Part shown: piece by piece, positions 5,805-13,050 of the stretch | How the letters are laid out: each line of letters starts with the position of its first letter | Numbering within the stretch: position 1 is the first letter of the stretch | Assembly: GCA_031285925.1 (NCBI GenBank) | Contig: JAITVG010000272.1 | Coordinates: 1 to 32,833 of the forward strand | Length of the DNA: 32,833 bases | Direction: 5' to 3' | Source of the DNA: Tannerellaceae bacterium | GTDB taxonomy: Bacteria; Bacteroidota; Bacteroidia; Bacteroidales; Tannerellaceae | Notes under the pieces: generated by a model | What the model was told of the DNA's origin: nothing | What the model saw: the letters and a program-made list of their open reading frames with translations, nothing else | The model's database searches: none | Made by a program: the position numbers and the translations under genes

Positions 5805-6317
5805 TCATTTTCCTCTATCTATAAAATCAAACAGAGGCAATTCGGCTATATCCAAATATTCCTTTGTTATTTTATCAAGAATTGAGCCTGTAATAATATC
5901 TTTTTCCAAAAACATTTCAATATCAGGAAATACTTCAGCAAACACTTCTACTATTCTTTCATCATCGATTCGAAGCCTGTATCTTATGTTTTTGAAGAAT
6001 TTAATTTCCGAATACTCCACTTGTTCGTCTGCGTATATTGTTTTAATCGCAAGTTCTATCAACATCAATTCTTCCTTTTCTGTAAGATCAGATTTGCCGA
6101 GCAAGTCGAAATAGTCTTGAATGAACTGTTTACCATTTCTGTTTATCTCATCCACCAGTTGATTGAATACTTCCTGAAAATCAAGTTCTTTGAATAATTC
6201 AGACTCCCGGCACAGGGATTGAATCATTTCAATTTCCCGCCGGTCGATATCTCCATCCGATGCCATACAGCAGAAAGCTGTTTTAAGCAATAATTTGTCA
6301 AATTCTGTTACGTTCAT
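5805..6317 (-). CDS. TerB-like (tellurite-resistance TerB / DjlA N-terminal-like) protein
   Basis: 170 aa, mostly helical, with the TerB-like pattern 'LLLKTAFCCMASDGDIDRREIEMIQSL' and a second acidic repeat 'LAIKTIYADEQVEYSEIKFFKNI'. Last gene of a five-gene operon. Confidence 0.75.
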   Translation of the reverse strand: MNVTEFDKLLLKTAFCCMASDGDIDRREIEMIQSLCRESELFKELDFQEVFNQLVDEINRNGKQFIQDYFDLLGKSDLTEKEELMLIELAIKTIYADEQVEYSEIKFFKNIRYRLRIDDERIVEVFAEVFPDIEMFLEKDIITGSILDKITKEYLDIAELPLFDFIDRGK

Positions 6318-6329
6318 ATTCTTATTTTT

Positions 6330-8132
6330 TTAAGTATAACCTATCCGCGGCCTGTCATTTTTCTTTTTAACGTTTTCTCCATCCATTTTCACTTTAATAC
6401 TTTCATATTTTTTGAGTTCATGCAAAGGGACGGATGGTTTGGTGTTTTTGATTACGCTTTTCAGCATATCCATTGAGATTCTGGATTTGGTTTTCAAAGC
6501 GAGTACTGAAGCCTCCTTTACTAAAAATTCAATGTCGGCCGAAACATAATTTTCCGTAAGTGTAGACAATTCTTCGTAATCCATCCCGAAATCCAGCGGG
6601 CGACTCTTTAGATACATCTCAAACATGGCTTTCCTTGCCTCAAAATCGGGTGGCGGCAAATAGAATTTCTTCTCCAAACGGCCGGCACGAAGCATTGCCG
6701 GATCAATCATATCAGGATAATTGGTTGCGCCAATGATGAAAATTCCCTTTTCGCCTGTCCTGTCCATCTGCGCCAACATTTCGTTTACGGCGCTTTTCGC
6801 CATTTCGTGGGCATCGCTGTCGCGCTTGGGCAACAGCTCATTTATTTCGTCAATGAAAATTATAGTCGGTGCATTCTTTTCGGCTTCCTCAAACATTTTC
6901 GCAATATTTTCCTGCGTTGCATTTATATAGCGGCTTTTCAATGTACTTGGTGTGGCCGGTATAAAATTGAATCCAACCTCTTCGGCAAAATGTTTGGCAA
7001 AAAAAGTTTTCCCACAGCCGGGCGGGCCATACAATAACATTCCGTTTGGAATTGTAACACCATATTTTGCGTATTCTTCGGGGTTATGTAAAGCGTCGAT
7101 CACATCCAATTGCAATTGTGCTTTCAATTCCTTCATTCCCGCTATCGCGTCAAAACCTTTCCCTACCGCCTTTCTGCCTTGTATTTTCTTTTCCGGCTTG
7201 TCATCCGATTTTATTTTTTGAACTTTATCTATATCCTCAATATCTATTTTCCCGTTTAATGCCTGAATAAATTCATCCGCACTTTGAAAACGGTTTTCCA
7301 TATCTCCGCTTAACGCCTTTTTCAAAAGCAAATTTATTACATCATCATAACCGATAAAATCCTTTGCAATTTCCGGAAACGACAAAGGCTTGCTTCTTTC
7401 CGTCAGAACGCTTTCTTCCGCATTTATCCGGTCTGCCCGGAATCTCGAAATATCCTTAAACCAGGGCGGCAAGCCGAAAAGCAGTTGATACATTACGGCA
7501 CCGATCGAAAAAATATCGCTCTGCGGCGAATACAAACCATTGAAACACTCCGAAGCCACATAGTTCAAGTTCAAACCGGCTTTGTTGTATGCCTTAGTCG
7601 ATGAATGAAACGACCGGGCAAAACCAAAGTCGATGATTTTCGCTTTTGGAATATCGCCCGACAAATCCAGCATAATGTTTTGCGGTGTGATTTCGTTGTG
7701 AATAATCGGTTCGGGCATTTTGTGCAGATAACTCAAACCTTTCAACACATCGGATATAATTTGCCGGATGTCGTAATAATTGGTAAACGATTCACGGCTT
7801 ATTCTTTCCGACAGCGTTTCGCCGACAATGAAATCCAAAACCAAATGGCCGAATTTCCTGTTCTCAAAAATCATTTCGCCACTGTCTTTCCAGGAAACAA
7901 TGTTCTCCTGTTTTATTTTTTTCAAAAACTCAATTTCCAGCAAATTGTTTTCGCTGTCAAAAGCCGAACGGTGTAATTTGGCATAATCAAACAACTTCAG
8001 GAAATACAATTTCCCGTCCGAACCTTTTACGCGATACGTTTCGGCATTGCTTCCCTGTTTGATGAAAAGTAAAACACTGTATTTTCCATCAATAGAAAAT
8101 CCTTTTGGTAATATGCCTTTGTAATTATTCAT
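6330..8132 (-). CDS. Fusion of an N-terminal protein kinase-like domain and a C-terminal AAA+ ATPase
   Basis: 600 aa. Kinase part: 'YFLKLFD' Lys, catalytic-loop position 'HNEITPQNIML', 'IIDFGFA' (DFG), 'SDIFSIGAVMYQLLFGLPPW'. AAA part: Walker A 'GPPGCGKT', Walker B 'IIFIDEIN', sensor 1 'IIGATN', SRH 'DPAMLRAGRLEKKF'. Start overlaps the upstream stop (TAATG). Confidence 0.93.
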   Translation of the reverse strand: MNNYKGILPKGFSIDGKYSVLLFIKQGSNAETYRVKGSDGKLYFLKLFDYAKLHRSAFDSENNLLEIEFLKKIKQENIVSWKDSGEMIFENRKFGHLVLDFIVGETLSERISRESFTNYYDIRQIISDVLKGLSYLHKMPEPIIHNEITPQNIMLDLSGDIPKAKIIDFGFARSFHSSTKAYNKAGLNLNYVASECFNGLYSPQSDIFSIGAVMYQLLFGLPPWFKDISRFRADRINAEESVLTERSKPLSFPEIAKDFIGYDDVINLLLKKALSGDMENRFQSADEFIQALNGKIDIEDIDKVQKIKSDDKPEKKIQGRKAVGKGFDAIAGMKELKAQLQLDVIDALHNPEEYAKYGVTIPNGMLLYGPPGCGKTFFAKHFAEEVGFNFIPATPSTLKSRYINATQENIAKMFEEAEKNAPTIIFIDEINELLPKRDSDAHEMAKSAVNEMLAQMDRTGEKGIFIIGATNYPDMIDPAMLRAGRLEKKFYLPPPDFEARKAMFEMYLKSRPLDFGMDYEELSTLTENYVSADIEFLVKEASVLALKTKSRISMDMLKSVIKNTKPSVPLHELKKYESIKVKMDGENVKKKNDRPRIGYT

Positions 8133-10663
8133 TAGCCTAATGTATTTGTCGGTCTTTCATTATCAGGCATTAAACCGATCACTTGAATGAGAATGTTGCG
8201 GATGCCCGAAGTGTTTCCGTTTGCCGCCATTTGCAAGCCTTGATTAAGCAGCTGTCTTGCTTTGTTGGCATCTTTCCAATGATAAGAGCCGAAACTGTCG
8301 TTTATGTGGCGCAGGAACTGAACGTCCATTGCGTTTCCTGTAACAAGATTGCGCAATTCAAAATCCAACTGTGCGATTTCTATTTTGAGTCCTTTCGCCT
8401 CTTTGATGTTTTTTTCTTTGATGGCATGTTCCACTTTCTTTCTGTATTCTTCCAAGTTATCTTCCACTTGCTTCATATTCACGCTATTGGCAGTGCCGAG
8501 TTGTTTGATTTTTCCAATTAAATTTTCCAACTCATAGAACGCATTCTTCAGTTCTTCCTCAACCTTTGGATATTCTGCCGATTTCTCTGCGCTGTCCAAC
8601 TTCAACAACTCTTTACGCAAACCGTCCAGTATCTTCATTTTGCCGTCGGCACTTCCTTTTTCGTTTTCAAGTTGATCTTCAAAAGCATTCAGTTTTTCCG
8701 CAATATTATCGGCTTTTACTTTTTGCGCTACCTGTTTTGCCTTTGAAATTTCGTTTGTCAAAAAATCTTCTGTCGGAGGTTCGGTTTGCTTTATTTCTAT
8801 TTTCAATTCTTCCGTGTGCTCTATTGTCGGAAACTCTGCCGTAAATTGCATTATTTGCGACCTGTCCACTTTGATTGTAATGTTTACATCGCTTCCTTCC
8901 GGCAACAGTTTCGGCAAACTTTCACCGCTAATGATAACTTCCTTTATCAAATTGTTCAGTACGGGATTTGTTCCCTCTGCATTATGATCGCCCTGATAAA
9001 TAGGAATACGAATAAAGTCGCTTGCCATTCCGGGGCGAATTGTCGTCCTTGTTTTCAAACCGTTTACTACGCCCGTAACCGGTACTTTTTTGTTCTTTTC
9101 CAATCCCTTTACCGGCAGGAACAAATCTTTTTCTTCGGTGTGGAAATACTTCGCTATACCAATGTGATACGGTAAAACCTGCATCCCATCCAGTCCGCCG
9201 ATACCTTGCAAAATACTGAACTTGTTGGGCTGACATTCCAGTTTGTTTCCGGACTCATCGTAAACGTTTACATCAAAAGCATTGGATTGTCCTTCATTCA
9301 AAACAACTTCCACAATCGACGATTTTTCGCCGATCTGCCTCTTTCCGCTACTCCAGGCACGGTCGGAACGTACCACATCGACATAAATCTTTTCGGGGAA
9401 AGAACCTTCCGTTTTTTCTTTCAGCACTTTGATATTTATCATTTCCTCCAACTCAACGCTTGTGGCTTCGTATTTAATATCCAACTGCAATTTTGTTTTA
9501 TCCCGCGTTTCTTCTTTCACTTCGTCGGAAACCGTAATTGTAGAAGCAAACAATGCCGCACCTTTTGAAACTACGGTCATCGGATCGACGGAAGCATCAA
9601 CGTTTTCCGTAATTTGTTCTTTCAGCATTCGTCGCAGGATCGGCGAAAAAGTCGGGCCGCCGACCAAAATCAAAGCGTCCAGATCAGAACCGTTCAGATT
9701 ATTGCGTTTCAACAAGTCCTTGGTTATGTCAATCGCCTTTTGAAAAATCGGCGCAACGGCATTTTCCATATCTTTTTGTGTAACTGCCACATCTATTTCA
9801 GGCTCTTCTCCGTTATCGTCTTCAAAAGGCAAATCGCCCAGATTGGAAAGAATATGGTGTGTGTCTTTAAACGATAACTGAATTTTCGCTTCTTCGGCAA
9901 AAGGTTTAACCGCATTACGCAGAATTTCCTTTTTTGTTGCGTTCCCCAAAATACTTTCGATGGCGTAACTTGCCCGCAAATTCGGAATGATCAATTGGTC
10001 AACGATTGCTTCATCCAAGTTTTTACCGCCCAGCCAATTATCTCCGTCCGTATCTTTTACCGACAAAATACCTTCTTCCGATTTTACCAAAGCGGCATCA
10101 AACGTTCCGCCTCCAAAATCGAATACACACCAGAAACCGTCTTTATTTTTTGCCGTCAAACCGTAGGCCGTTGCGGCAGCAACAGGTTCCTGTAATAATT
10201 GAACGTGTTTGAAACCTGCCATTTTTGCGGCTTTCATCGTGGCTTCGTTTTGTGGATTCAAGAATTTAGCAGGAACGGTAATAACGATTGAATAGATATT
10301 TTCGTCTTGAATATAGGATTTCAATTTTTTCAACACTTCGGCCGACAGTTCTTCCGGCGATAATGCCCTGCCCAAATTGGAACTTTCGTAAGTATGCGTC
10401 GTTCCCATGGTTCGCTTAAACTCGATAAACGTGTTTGTTTGTCCTGTTTCAAACGATTTCAACGCCCTTGTGTTGTCGTTTTTCATCACATTGAAAGCCG
10501 TGTCGCCAACTAAAACAGCCTTACGCTTGTTGAAATGAACACACGACGGTGTAGTGTCTTTCAATGTGTCGGACTTTTTAATGGTAGGCTGTCCGTTTTC
10601 CATTCTTGCAATTGCCGAATTGGTTGTCCCCAAGTCAATGCCGTAGTCAATTTTATTTCTCAT
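8132..10663 (-). CDS. Hsp70-family protein (DnaK-like ATPase domain, divergent C-terminal region)
   Basis: 843 aa; 'YGIDLGTTNSAIA', 'VFDFGGGTFDAALV', 'LILVGGPTFSPILRRML'. The DnaK-type 'LLDVTPLSLGIET' linker/SBD signature is not recognisable. Long helical C-terminus. Confidence 0.93.
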   Translation of the reverse strand: MRNKIDYGIDLGTTNSAIARMENGQPTIKKSDTLKDTTPSCVHFNKRKAVLVGDTAFNVMKNDNTRALKSFETGQTNTFIEFKRTMGTTHTYESSNLGRALSPEELSAEVLKKLKSYIQDENIYSIVITVPAKFLNPQNEATMKAAKMAGFKHVQLLQEPVAAATAYGLTAKNKDGFWCVFDFGGGTFDAALVKSEEGILSVKDTDGDNWLGGKNLDEAIVDQLIIPNLRASYAIESILGNATKKEILRNAVKPFAEEAKIQLSFKDTHHILSNLGDLPFEDDNGEEPEIDVAVTQKDMENAVAPIFQKAIDITKDLLKRNNLNGSDLDALILVGGPTFSPILRRMLKEQITENVDASVDPMTVVSKGAALFASTITVSDEVKEETRDKTKLQLDIKYEATSVELEEMINIKVLKEKTEGSFPEKIYVDVVRSDRAWSSGKRQIGEKSSIVEVVLNEGQSNAFDVNVYDESGNKLECQPNKFSILQGIGGLDGMQVLPYHIGIAKYFHTEEKDLFLPVKGLEKNKKVPVTGVVNGLKTRTTIRPGMASDFIRIPIYQGDHNAEGTNPVLNNLIKEVIISGESLPKLLPEGSDVNITIKVDRSQIMQFTAEFPTIEHTEELKIEIKQTEPPTEDFLTNEISKAKQVAQKVKADNIAEKLNAFEDQLENEKGSADGKMKILDGLRKELLKLDSAEKSAEYPKVEEELKNAFYELENLIGKIKQLGTANSVNMKQVEDNLEEYRKKVEHAIKEKNIKEAKGLKIEIAQLDFELRNLVTGNAMDVQFLRHINDSFGSYHWKDANKARQLLNQGLQMAANGNTSGIRNILIQVIGLMPDNERPTNTLG

Positions 10664-10714: not shown

Positions 10715-11581
10715 TCACATACCGACAGAAACCTCTATTTGTGCGGTTTGTATCATCTTATCGTTGAAATTCACCTGCGGTATCAATACTTTAGTAATGA
10801 CTTCCGATCCTTTCTCCAGGTTTTCGTCGGGAATGGAACTTGTAACGATTATTTTCATTCCCTGATGATACTGCTTACCCAAAAGTTCGGGTATTTCGTA
10901 ACCGTTTGCCGAAAGGTTGTCTTTCAATTTTCCGACGGAACGTTCCAATTGTTTCAATCCTTTCGTGCCTTTATCCATCAAATTAATGTTGCGTTCGATC
11001 AAATTGATTTCACTTGCAACTTTCAAGGCCAAAGAATGATCGGGTTCGACAAATTGAGGCGATGATCCGGGCATTTGTGACAATACTTCCAGCACTTCCG
11101 TGCTTTTCGCAAATTCATTCACCAATTTCTCGTCTATCGATTGCTTGGTTTGGCTCAACTGTGCGACAATATCCGTTTTGTCTTCCTGCTGCTTTCTGCG
11201 AAGCAGCAAATACAGAACGCCTGAAATAATAACGGCAAAGAGCAATCCGATAATCACCCAAAGAGTTCTTTTACCGAGCAATTTATCTATTTCGGCAATT
11301 TGCTTTTCGGCGTTGGTGCGGGTATTGCTTATTTGTGCATCGAGCCTGTCCGCACGAGCCACAATCGCTTCTTTTTCGCTTTCTACTTCTGTTTGCAACT
11401 CTTCGATAGCGTCATTTACCGTTTTGATTTGTTTCTCCAACTCATTTTTCTGATTTTTTAATTCACTTTGCAACTTCCCGACTTGCTGTTGCAGTTGAAC
11501 GAAAGCAATACTGTCGGGCGTTTGCGAAAATACGGTCAGCGAAAACAGTATCAGGCTGATTGTGAAGATTGATGGTTTCAT
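10715..11581 (-). CDS. Membrane-anchored coiled-coil protein with a GrpE-like C-terminal region (putative nucleotide-exchange factor)
   Basis: The supplied ORF begins at 11686, but the likely start is the Met at 11581 (MKPSIFTISLILFSLTVFSQ..., signal-peptide-like). Its ATG overlaps the upstream TGA (ATGA, 11578-11581). Coiled coil, TM 'LWVIIGLLFAVIISGVLYLLLRRK', then C-terminus 'GYEIPELLGKQYHQGMKIIVT...EKGSEVITKVLIPQVNFNDKMIQTAQIEVSVG', similar in layout to a GrpE beta-domain. Confidence 0.7.
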   Translation of the reverse strand: MKPSIFTISLILFSLTVFSQTPDSIAFVQLQQQVGKLQSELKNQKNELEKQIKTVNDAIEELQTEVESEKEAIVARADRLDAQISNTRTNAEKQIAEIDKLLGKRTLWVIIGLLFAVIISGVLYLLLRRKQQEDKTDIVAQLSQTKQSIDEKLVNEFAKSTEVLEVLSQMPGSSPQFVEPDHSLALKVASEINLIERNINLMDKGTKGLKQLERSVGKLKDNLSANGYEIPELLGKQYHQGMKIIVTSSIPDENLEKGSEVITKVLIPQVNFNDKMIQTAQIEVSVGM

Positions 11582-13050
11582 ATATAAGACAATATAATAT
11601 TTACAAGTATGATTATTCCGATTATTCCGATTGTCCACAATATCGCAGCAGCACATCCTTTGTTTTTTGTTTGTGTAGGCGTCCAATAGTCCAAATATTG
11701 AATCTTGGACTTTTGTGCATATCCTACTTTCCCCATCAGGAAATTGACCAGGTTTTTGTATTCATTTATTTTCGTTTGATCTTCAACTGCCTTGATTTTA
11801 TCAATATAAGTCGGTGGTATTGCCTGTTTGATTAAATCTGCGACTTTACTCCAGTCGATAGAATTGTCAATCATTTCATTGACCTTGACCCAATTGATCG
11901 TTTGTCCCCAGGGCAATGATCTTTCCTGTATTCTGACCTGTGCCGTAATTTTTTCCTTATTGGCTTCATACGCTTCCTTTACTGATTTCAACAACGCTAT
12001 TGCTTGCGAAATCTCTTTATCCTTCATTGATCTGATCGTACTGAGGTTGTCTTTGATCCTGCCTTTTACAAGATTTCCGATAGCGACAGTTTCCGCTTTT
12101 TGGGCTAATTTTATTGCTGCCTCAACATAATCGGTATTACTGTTCTTTTCCACGTTGTCATTAAAGTACTCGATGCTGCATTGCAGGATTTCGTTGGCAA
12201 CCTTGTCTGCTATTGATGAATATTTTAAATCGCCTGTGCCAACAATATCTTTAAGTTGCGACAGGTCGTTTGCTGTTTCCACAAACAATTCTTCGCCTGC
12301 CTTTAGTGCATTGGTTTTGTCGGTTTTACGTTTGTTTTTGGTCGATTCTATTTTTTGTTCAATTTGTGTAATCGGCTTCCGGACTAAGTTCTTTAAGAAA
12401 TCCTGCTTTGCCGCAAAATCGTAATTATTCAAATACTTTACAAGTTCAGCCGTTTTTTGGTTGTCGATATTGTCGGAAATTGCTTTTAGAAAATCCAGTT
12501 CGATATCCCCCTTTACTACCTTATATGTTTCATCAACAATACCTTTTATAAAGTTTTCAAAGTAATCACATTCTATAAATTTGATATTTGCCAATACCGC
12601 ATCGGGGAATGATCTTTCAGCCGTAATTAAGGAAAGAACCGCGCTGTTGTGGAAAGCTGAAAAATTCTTCTTTGTAACATCATTCCATAATCTATTTCCC
12701 GATTCATCGGTCGTGCCGGTCAATTTGTCCCAAATTTGGTATGCTGCTTCAATATTTCCTTCTTTCAACGCCTCGAATGCAACTTCGTCGGTAATTGGGC
12801 TTCCGGCCCAAAACCAAAACAACGCTGCATTTATCCTGTCGCTGTCAAGATTGATTTTTGAAGCAGCTTCTTCAACACTCTCAAGCGTTCTGTGTAAATT
12901 TCCAAGTGCGGGGAAACTGAAGTCGCCCTGTGGCTCTTGCTCGGCTTCAATGAATTGTTTGAGTCGCTTTATTTGCCGGGCTTGTTCTCTTGCGGTTGTA
13001 CCGGCAAGTATTCCGACGATTCTGTACGGGTTGTTTTTGACTGTATTCAT
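11578..13050 (-). CDS. Tail-anchored protein with J-domain-like N-terminus (no HPD), first gene of the Hsp70 operon
   Basis: 490 aa; N-terminus 'NPYRIVGILAGTTAREQARQIKRLKQFIEA' resembles J-domain helix I/II layout ('NPYxILG') without HPD. Long helical middle; C-terminal TM 'AAAILWTIGIIGIIILVNIILSYI'. Confidence 0.7.
   Translation of the reverse strand: MNTVKNNPYRIVGILAGTTAREQARQIKRLKQFIEAEQEPQGDFSFPALGNLHRTLESVEEAASKINLDSDRINAALFWFWAGSPITDEVAFEALKEGNIEAAYQIWDKLTGTTDESGNRLWNDVTKKNFSAFHNSAVLSLITAERSFPDAVLANIKFIECDYFENFIKGIVDETYKVVKGDIELDFLKAISDNIDNQKTAELVKYLNNYDFAAKQDFLKNLVRKPITQIEQKIESTKNKRKTDKTNALKAGEELFVETANDLSQLKDIVGTGDLKYSSIADKVANEILQCSIEYFNDNVEKNSNTDYVEAAIKLAQKAETVAIGNLVKGRIKDNLSTIRSMKDKEISQAIALLKSVKEAYEANKEKITAQVRIQERSLPWGQTINWVKVNEMIDNSIDWSKVADLIKQAIPPTYIDKIKAVEDQTKINEYKNLVNFLMGKVGYAQKSKIQYLDYWTPTQTKNKGCAAAILWTIGIIGIIILVNIILSYI

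Follow-up and report, generated by a model that had tools for sequence, protein, structure and literature searches.

Genetic organization of the locus

The gene analyzed here lies on the minus strand at positions 10715-11581 of the window, by which we mean the whole stretch of 32,833 nucleotides of Tannerellaceae bacterium DNA. Its stop codon occupies 10715-10717 and it encodes a protein of 288 amino acids, counted from the ATG, in which a signal-like N-terminus, a coiled coil, a transmembrane (TM) helix and a GrpE-like C-terminal domain follow one another. Five co-oriented genes are found at this place, in what is also the usual order among relatives: a J-like gene, the gene of the GrpE-like protein, an Hsp70 gene, a kinase-AAA+ fusion and a TerB-like gene. 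The first two overlap by an ATGA, 51 bp separate the GrpE-like gene from the Hsp70 gene, the latter overlaps the kinase-AAA+ gene at 8132, and 12 bp precede the TerB-like gene.

The conserved first gene of the operon (11578-13050, minus strand) encodes a J-like protein of 490 amino acids with an NPYRxxG N-terminus and a C-terminal TM segment. This NPYRxxG start recalls helix I of J-domains. The identification of the protein as a J-domain protein is nevertheless not supported, as it has no HPD motif and hhalign gave a Prob of 8% with 16 DnaJ J-domains. The Hsp70 (8132-10663, minus strand, 843 amino acids; Pfam HSP70, E 8.1e-65) has an intact nucleotide-binding domain (NBD) at residues 8-404 and a divergent C-terminal half. 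It retains the beta-hairpin of subdomain IIB, slightly extended and richer in acidic residues relative to the DnaK of the same genome. The next gene (6330-8132, minus strand) encodes a fusion of 600 amino acids between a Ser/Thr-kinase-like domain and an AAA+ ATPase (Pfam Pkinase 2.9e-34 and AAA 1.2e-37). Its catalytic HRD is replaced by HNE, with the Lys and the DFG kept, in the window as well as in loci L011-L015 and L047, which may point to an atypical kinase or to one devoid of activity. The last protein, of 170 amino acids (5805-6317, minus strand), is conserved in the operon and matches Pfam TerB with an E-value of 1.3e-4, just under the cut-off.

The same gene order is observed in Bacteroidota MAGs (L011-L015), on the Haliscomenobacter plasmid pHALHY02 and in L057, L059, L107 and L108, with two variants: no TerB-like gene is seen in L011, and L014 has a second Hsp70. 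Such a second Hsp70 paralogue is present inside the operon at L014:12512-14587 and L107:3798-6251. Its phosphate loop is degenerate (AIYLNSSF and GIYFNDSF vs GIDLGTTN), and it is perhaps a catalytically dead partner.

Architecture and topology of the protein

The protein starts with a signal-peptide-like segment (residues 1-20, positions 11522-11581, minus strand) that reads MKPSIFTISLILFSLTVFSQ; the N-terminus is hydrophobic in relatives too. Residues 24-104 (11270-11512, minus strand) form a predicted extracytoplasmic coiled coil, on the basis of hydrophobic period, composition and matches to coiled-coil families. This region contains 33% of charged residues and just 2 Pro/Gly, and its hydrophobic period of 3.58 residues was equally strong in 2 of 1000 shuffled sequences. 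The sole TM helix of the protein follows at about residues 107-127 (11201-11263, minus strand), as assigned by hydropathy in the window protein and its relatives, and is itself followed by RRK. Since the N-terminus is signal-like and positive charges lie after the TM helix, an N-out/C-in topology is predicted from hydropathy and charge, which would place the coil on the outer side of the membrane and the GrpE-like domain in the cytoplasm, together with the Hsp70.

Beyond the membrane, a putative cytoplasmic helix (residues 134-168; 11078-11182, minus strand) was predicted with low confidence by AF2 and could take the place of the GrpE stalk. The GrpE-like domain itself, of 113 residues, covers residues 176-288 (10718-11056, minus strand), as delimited by AF2, Foldseek and profile tests. 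It comprises two short helices (183-201 and 209-225), so that the GrpE-like region takes in residues 183-225 besides the beta-domain, the five to six strands of which run up to the C-terminus. The C-terminal sequence cited in the earlier reading is indeed there. In an alignment of 14 relatives, the coil varies in sequence and length and the invariant residues sit in the C-terminal domain: DH 181-182, GYE 227-229, PQ 268-269 and IQxA 277-280. Because this domain is conserved across phyla, a chance ORF is ruled out. An hmmscan of the whole protein returned nothing beyond coiled-coil and TM noise.

The C-terminal domain has the fold of GrpE

The original prediction, made by eye, was that the C-terminal region resembles the GrpE beta-domain, and it proposed to look for a GrpE-type fold by AlphaFold and for homology by profile searches. 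The AF2 model of the window C-terminal domain, obtained with a divergent alignment of 12 rows, reached a pLDDT of 91.8 and a pTM of 0.79. It displays two helices followed by strands 69-77, 85-92, 95-97, 100-103 and 105-112 (domain numbering). When this model was compared with the PDB by Foldseek, ranks 1-13 were all GrpE or GrpEL1 chains (best E 2.6e-6, TM-score to the query 0.43-0.63) and the earliest non-GrpE fold came at rank 14 with an E-value of 0.38. The fold is thus of the GrpE type and not another one. The five AF2 models were uneven: two scored well (91.8 and 83.8), the other three poorly (40.8-48.5), and the good result depended on the presence in the alignment of divergent soluble relatives with 15-20% identity. 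With eight close relatives, AF2 gave a pLDDT of 52.6 and Foldseek no significant match, GrpE being even so at rank 2. A BFVD fold search was negative and PDB sequence searches gave no useful match.

At the sequence level, no member of the family reached the gathering cut-off of Pfam GrpE (PF01025): the best relative had an E-value of 0.0066 and the window protein no match. A GrpE signature pattern was dropped as a yardstick, as it matched only 4 of 37 true GrpEs. Profile-profile comparison gave a different picture. A profile of the TM-type C-terminal domains alone aligned by hhalign with 37 GrpEs collinearly across 93 columns (Prob 55%, E 1.2e-4). A mixed profile, built from TM-type and soluble versions with no Pfam GrpE included, gave a Prob of 92% and an E-value of 6.8e-7; on reversal of the profile the Prob fell to 0.1%, and no block permutation, out of 150, attained the score. 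The search for GrpE homology that had been proposed therefore became significant once diverse relatives were added, even though the Pfam cut-off was not reached. Among 3,130 ORFs, those that an HMM of the TM type alone picked out at E<=0.1 were members of the family, soluble versions and 11 GrpEs, and not a single unrelated one. When whole genomes were searched with the mixed profile, 14 canonical GrpEs came up with E-values between about 2e-5 and 2e-8, the majority being neighbours of dnaJ. In the reverse direction, a GrpE-only HMM hardly detects the TM type (best E 0.17). Altogether, the C-terminal domain is a remote but real homologue of GrpE, and the protein is a divergent GrpE branch outside the Pfam-defined GrpE family. 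In one Bacteroidota genome, we also noticed a second divergent GrpE (E 4.6e-8) beside a short divergent Hsp70 (L055:24-2468, minus strand), unlike the present family.

TM-type and soluble relatives

Relatives of the TM type share the architecture seen in the window, which is also the layout that had been read from the ORF, including the unusual position of the membrane segment between the coiled coil and the GrpE-like domain. A single TM helix precedes the C-terminal domain in all 23 of them and lies mid-protein after a coiled coil in 22, the exception being a shorter form (L080) with its TM helix at the N-terminus. The immediate proximity of the Hsp70 gene, noted earlier for the window, holds for the whole group: Hsp70 is the next gene downstream in 22/22 TM-type loci with downstream DNA, a count in which L003, nearly identical to L016, was not taken separately and from which L017 and L053 are absent because they stop at a contig edge.

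Related Hsp70s also occur on proteobacterial plasmids, where a hypothetical protein of about 115-125 amino acids is encoded immediately upstream of each. In other Bacteroidota, soluble versions of the domain of 95-118 amino acids precede related Hsp70s, and a soluble version is likewise found upstream of related Hsp70s on IMG/VR contigs. The TM-type C-terminal profile matched the soluble versions with E-values of 1.6e-9 (Bacteroidota) and 6e-6 (Proteobacteria); by this sequence criterion, the small upstream proteins are soluble versions of the TM-type C-terminal domain. These hypothetical proteins of 95-125 amino acids (such as L065, L069, L081-L090 and L110-L115) thus have the same GrpE-like domain in the same place before Hsp70s of the same family, of about 830 amino acids, but, unlike the window protein, they have neither signal, coil nor TM helix. 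As the TM helix is present in 23/23 TM-type members vs 0/11 soluble members, anchoring is a novel trait of the TM-type branch. In Proteobacteria, links to the membrane and the wall seem to be carried by other proteins of the loci (TM, PG_binding_1 and SH3_3 proteins).

The smallest of these proteins, stalkless and of 95-118 amino acids, accompany Hsp70s of about 830 amino acids in L110, L113, L114 and L115 as well as in L081-L090, and a further conserved protein of about 450-540 amino acids adjoins them in several loci. The minimal versions of 95 amino acids raise the question of whether GrpE can act without a stalk. Scans of viral sequences gave no match to the TM-type profile or to the window Hsp70, whereas they did return proteobacterial versions. 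On IMG/VR contigs L067 and L069-L073 (and L057), such proteobacterial-type versions are accompanied by an AAA ATPase, a TM protein and an NPF-LG J-like protein.

An accessory Hsp70 module

In the same genome, contig C277 carries canonical grpE and dnaJ genes, and a canonical dnaK is found on contig C15. Since the canonical genes are kept elsewhere, the operon is an extra dedicated Hsp70 module and does not replace the housekeeping system. Its distribution is patchy: it was found in 7 of the 397 genomes of a phylum-wide sample and in 9 of 61 near relatives, one of these nine matches (L010) aligning to the coil only. We conclude that the operon is an accessory module, which may serve either in defence or in a response to envelope stress.

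Proteins with domains of the cell envelope recur around related Hsp70s. PG_binding_1 is found in related operons of Vibrio, Aeromonas and Aminobacter and SH3_3 in those of Polaromonas, and two Bacteroidota operons are immediately preceded by genes that also encode SH3_3. Peptidoglycan-binding or SH3_3 proteins were thus seen in or beside Hsp70 operons of several lineages (L062, L063, L064, L065, L013 and L015), a recurrence pointing to an envelope link.

Possible functions of the anchored protein

We propose that the protein is probably a membrane-anchored GrpE homologue acting as a nucleotide-exchange factor (NEF) dedicated to the adjoining Hsp70. The functional tie between the two consists in the genetic linkage described above, from which we infer the choice of partner. 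In Escherichia coli, the beta-domain of GrpE contacts subdomains IA/IB of DnaK and its short helices contact the IIB beta-hairpin (DnaK 276-302), which opens the cleft (PMC10825016), and human GrpEL1 works like E. coli GrpE (PMC11685456). By analogy, the cytoplasmic GrpE-like domain could dock on subdomains IB/IIB of the Hsp70 NBD, so that the cleft would open and ADP leave, the TM helix keeping exchange at the inner membrane. The coiled coil, predicted to be periplasmic, could pair two copies of the protein and would then be a dimerizer in place of the GrpE stalk. The Hsp70, the J-like protein, the kinase-AAA+ fusion and the TerB-like protein would form with it an accessory envelope-linked module apart from the housekeeping DnaK/DnaJ/GrpE. 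If this is true, the resetting of an Hsp70 would be controlled in space, and possibly by signals, through a GrpE domain borne by a TM helix and a periplasmic coil.

One could go further and assume that the coil relays an envelope signal to the NEF through the TM helix. Such a transmembrane chaperone switch, in which the periplasmic coil would sense the envelope and control the GrpE-like domain, exchange on the dedicated Hsp70 becoming an envelope-to-cytoplasm signal through the Hsp70 and the kinase-AAA+ protein, is a speculative extension that we hold only tentatively. It fits with the recurrent envelope domains (PG_binding_1 and SH3_3) of related operons. Were it correct, an Hsp70 switch could be coupled directly to the cell envelope, an arrangement not described before.

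A second possibility, doubtful to about the same degree and compatible with the NEF reading, is that the same protein with the same activity belongs to an anti-phage defence module, the periplasmic arm of which would sense phage attack or a breach of the envelope. Several relatives indeed have defence genes as neighbours (BREX pglZ/brxL with SIR2, zorA, Tn7-like tnsD/tnsE, a NACHT-FGE protein and restriction-type genes), some lie on IMG/VR contigs, and the patchy presence in phylum-wide genomes goes in the same direction. However, the operon is matched by no PADLOC model, no effector nuclease or toxin was recognised, and the window and most of the Bacteroidota loci L011-L015 lie among metabolic or unannotated genes rather than defence genes. 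PADLOC returned only generic kinase/AAA matches (PD-T4-6, IetA and mad6) for the kinase-AAA+ protein and matches to the coil of the GrpE-like protein, and none for the Hsp70, TerB-like and J-like proteins. In L057, the NACHT-FGE gene adjoins the operon.

One would also wonder whether the protein has kept any exchange activity. A GrpE-derived anchor devoid of it, a pseudo-NEF that would bind the Hsp70 NBD and merely tether the Hsp70 to the membrane, could account for a sequence that has drifted far from GrpE, for a short stalk helix and for anchoring as the new feature of the branch. We nevertheless consider it improbable, given that the parts that would touch the NBD, the beta-domain and the short helices, are the most conserved region of the protein and that soluble versions without an anchor persist next to Hsp70s of this kind, suggesting that the domain does something else than tether. 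Finally, it is hardly conceivable that the protein would be an ordinary coiled-coil membrane protein unrelated to GrpE: its top Pfam match is ZapG-like (PF06295, E 1.2e-4), which was rejected at 22.5 bits vs a cut-off of 33.5, and a plasmid relative is annotated as 'septum formation initiator', but these matches span the coil and the TM helix only, the C-terminal domain, which folds as GrpE, has no ZapG match alone, the gene is linked to Hsp70 in every locus that shows its downstream DNA, and the GrpE matches of Foldseek together with the TM-type-only profile and HMM results refute this view.

On the NEF reading that we prefer, the present operons would also make up a family of modules, each with its dedicated Hsp70, found in at least two phyla as well as on plasmids and IMG/VR contigs. 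Their small GrpE-like partners currently bear the annotation 'hypothetical protein' or 'septum formation initiator'.

Comparison with known systems

According to a review (PMC12987570), GrpE-like NEFs are soluble and belong to the cytoplasm of bacteria, the mitochondrial matrix and the chloroplast. The window protein has in common with GrpE and mitochondrial GrpEL1 (PF01025; PDB 1DKG, 4ANI, 3A6M, 8GB3 and 9BLS) the two short helices of the four-helix bundle, the beta-domain and a collinear profile. As for GrpE, its gene adjoins that of an Hsp70 that carries the IIB beta-hairpin. Unlike soluble GrpE, it has a TM helix, a signal-like N-terminus and a predicted extracytoplasmic coiled coil. Moreover, GrpE is a dimer with a long stalk of about 70 residues, whereas the window protein would have a short cytoplasmic helix of about 35 residues, and its putative partner is a divergent Hsp70 of about 840 amino acids and not DnaK. 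ZapG-like and septum formation initiator proteins resemble it by their TM helix and coiled coil but have neither a GrpE-like domain nor a linkage to Hsp70.

The fold and the probable activity of the protein are known ones, whereas the literature searched gives no account of its architecture, of the family to which the partner Hsp70 belongs or of the operon. No description of the operon or of a membrane-anchored GrpE was found there, in a search that covered open-licence papers only and is weak evidence of absence. A parallel can also be drawn with the conflict systems of actinobacteria and firmicutes that are centred on a GAP1-N2 GTPase and contain Hsp70, GrpE and DnaJ-fusion proteins (Kaur et al. 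2020, PMC7159879). Like these systems, the present module associates an accessory Hsp70, a putative NEF and a J-type protein in a conflict-type operon, in some cases with a second Hsp70-like gene. It differs from them in that it occurs in Bacteroidota, has no GAP1-N2 GTPase, contains a kinase-AAA+ fusion and a TerB-like protein, and carries its putative NEF on a membrane anchor.
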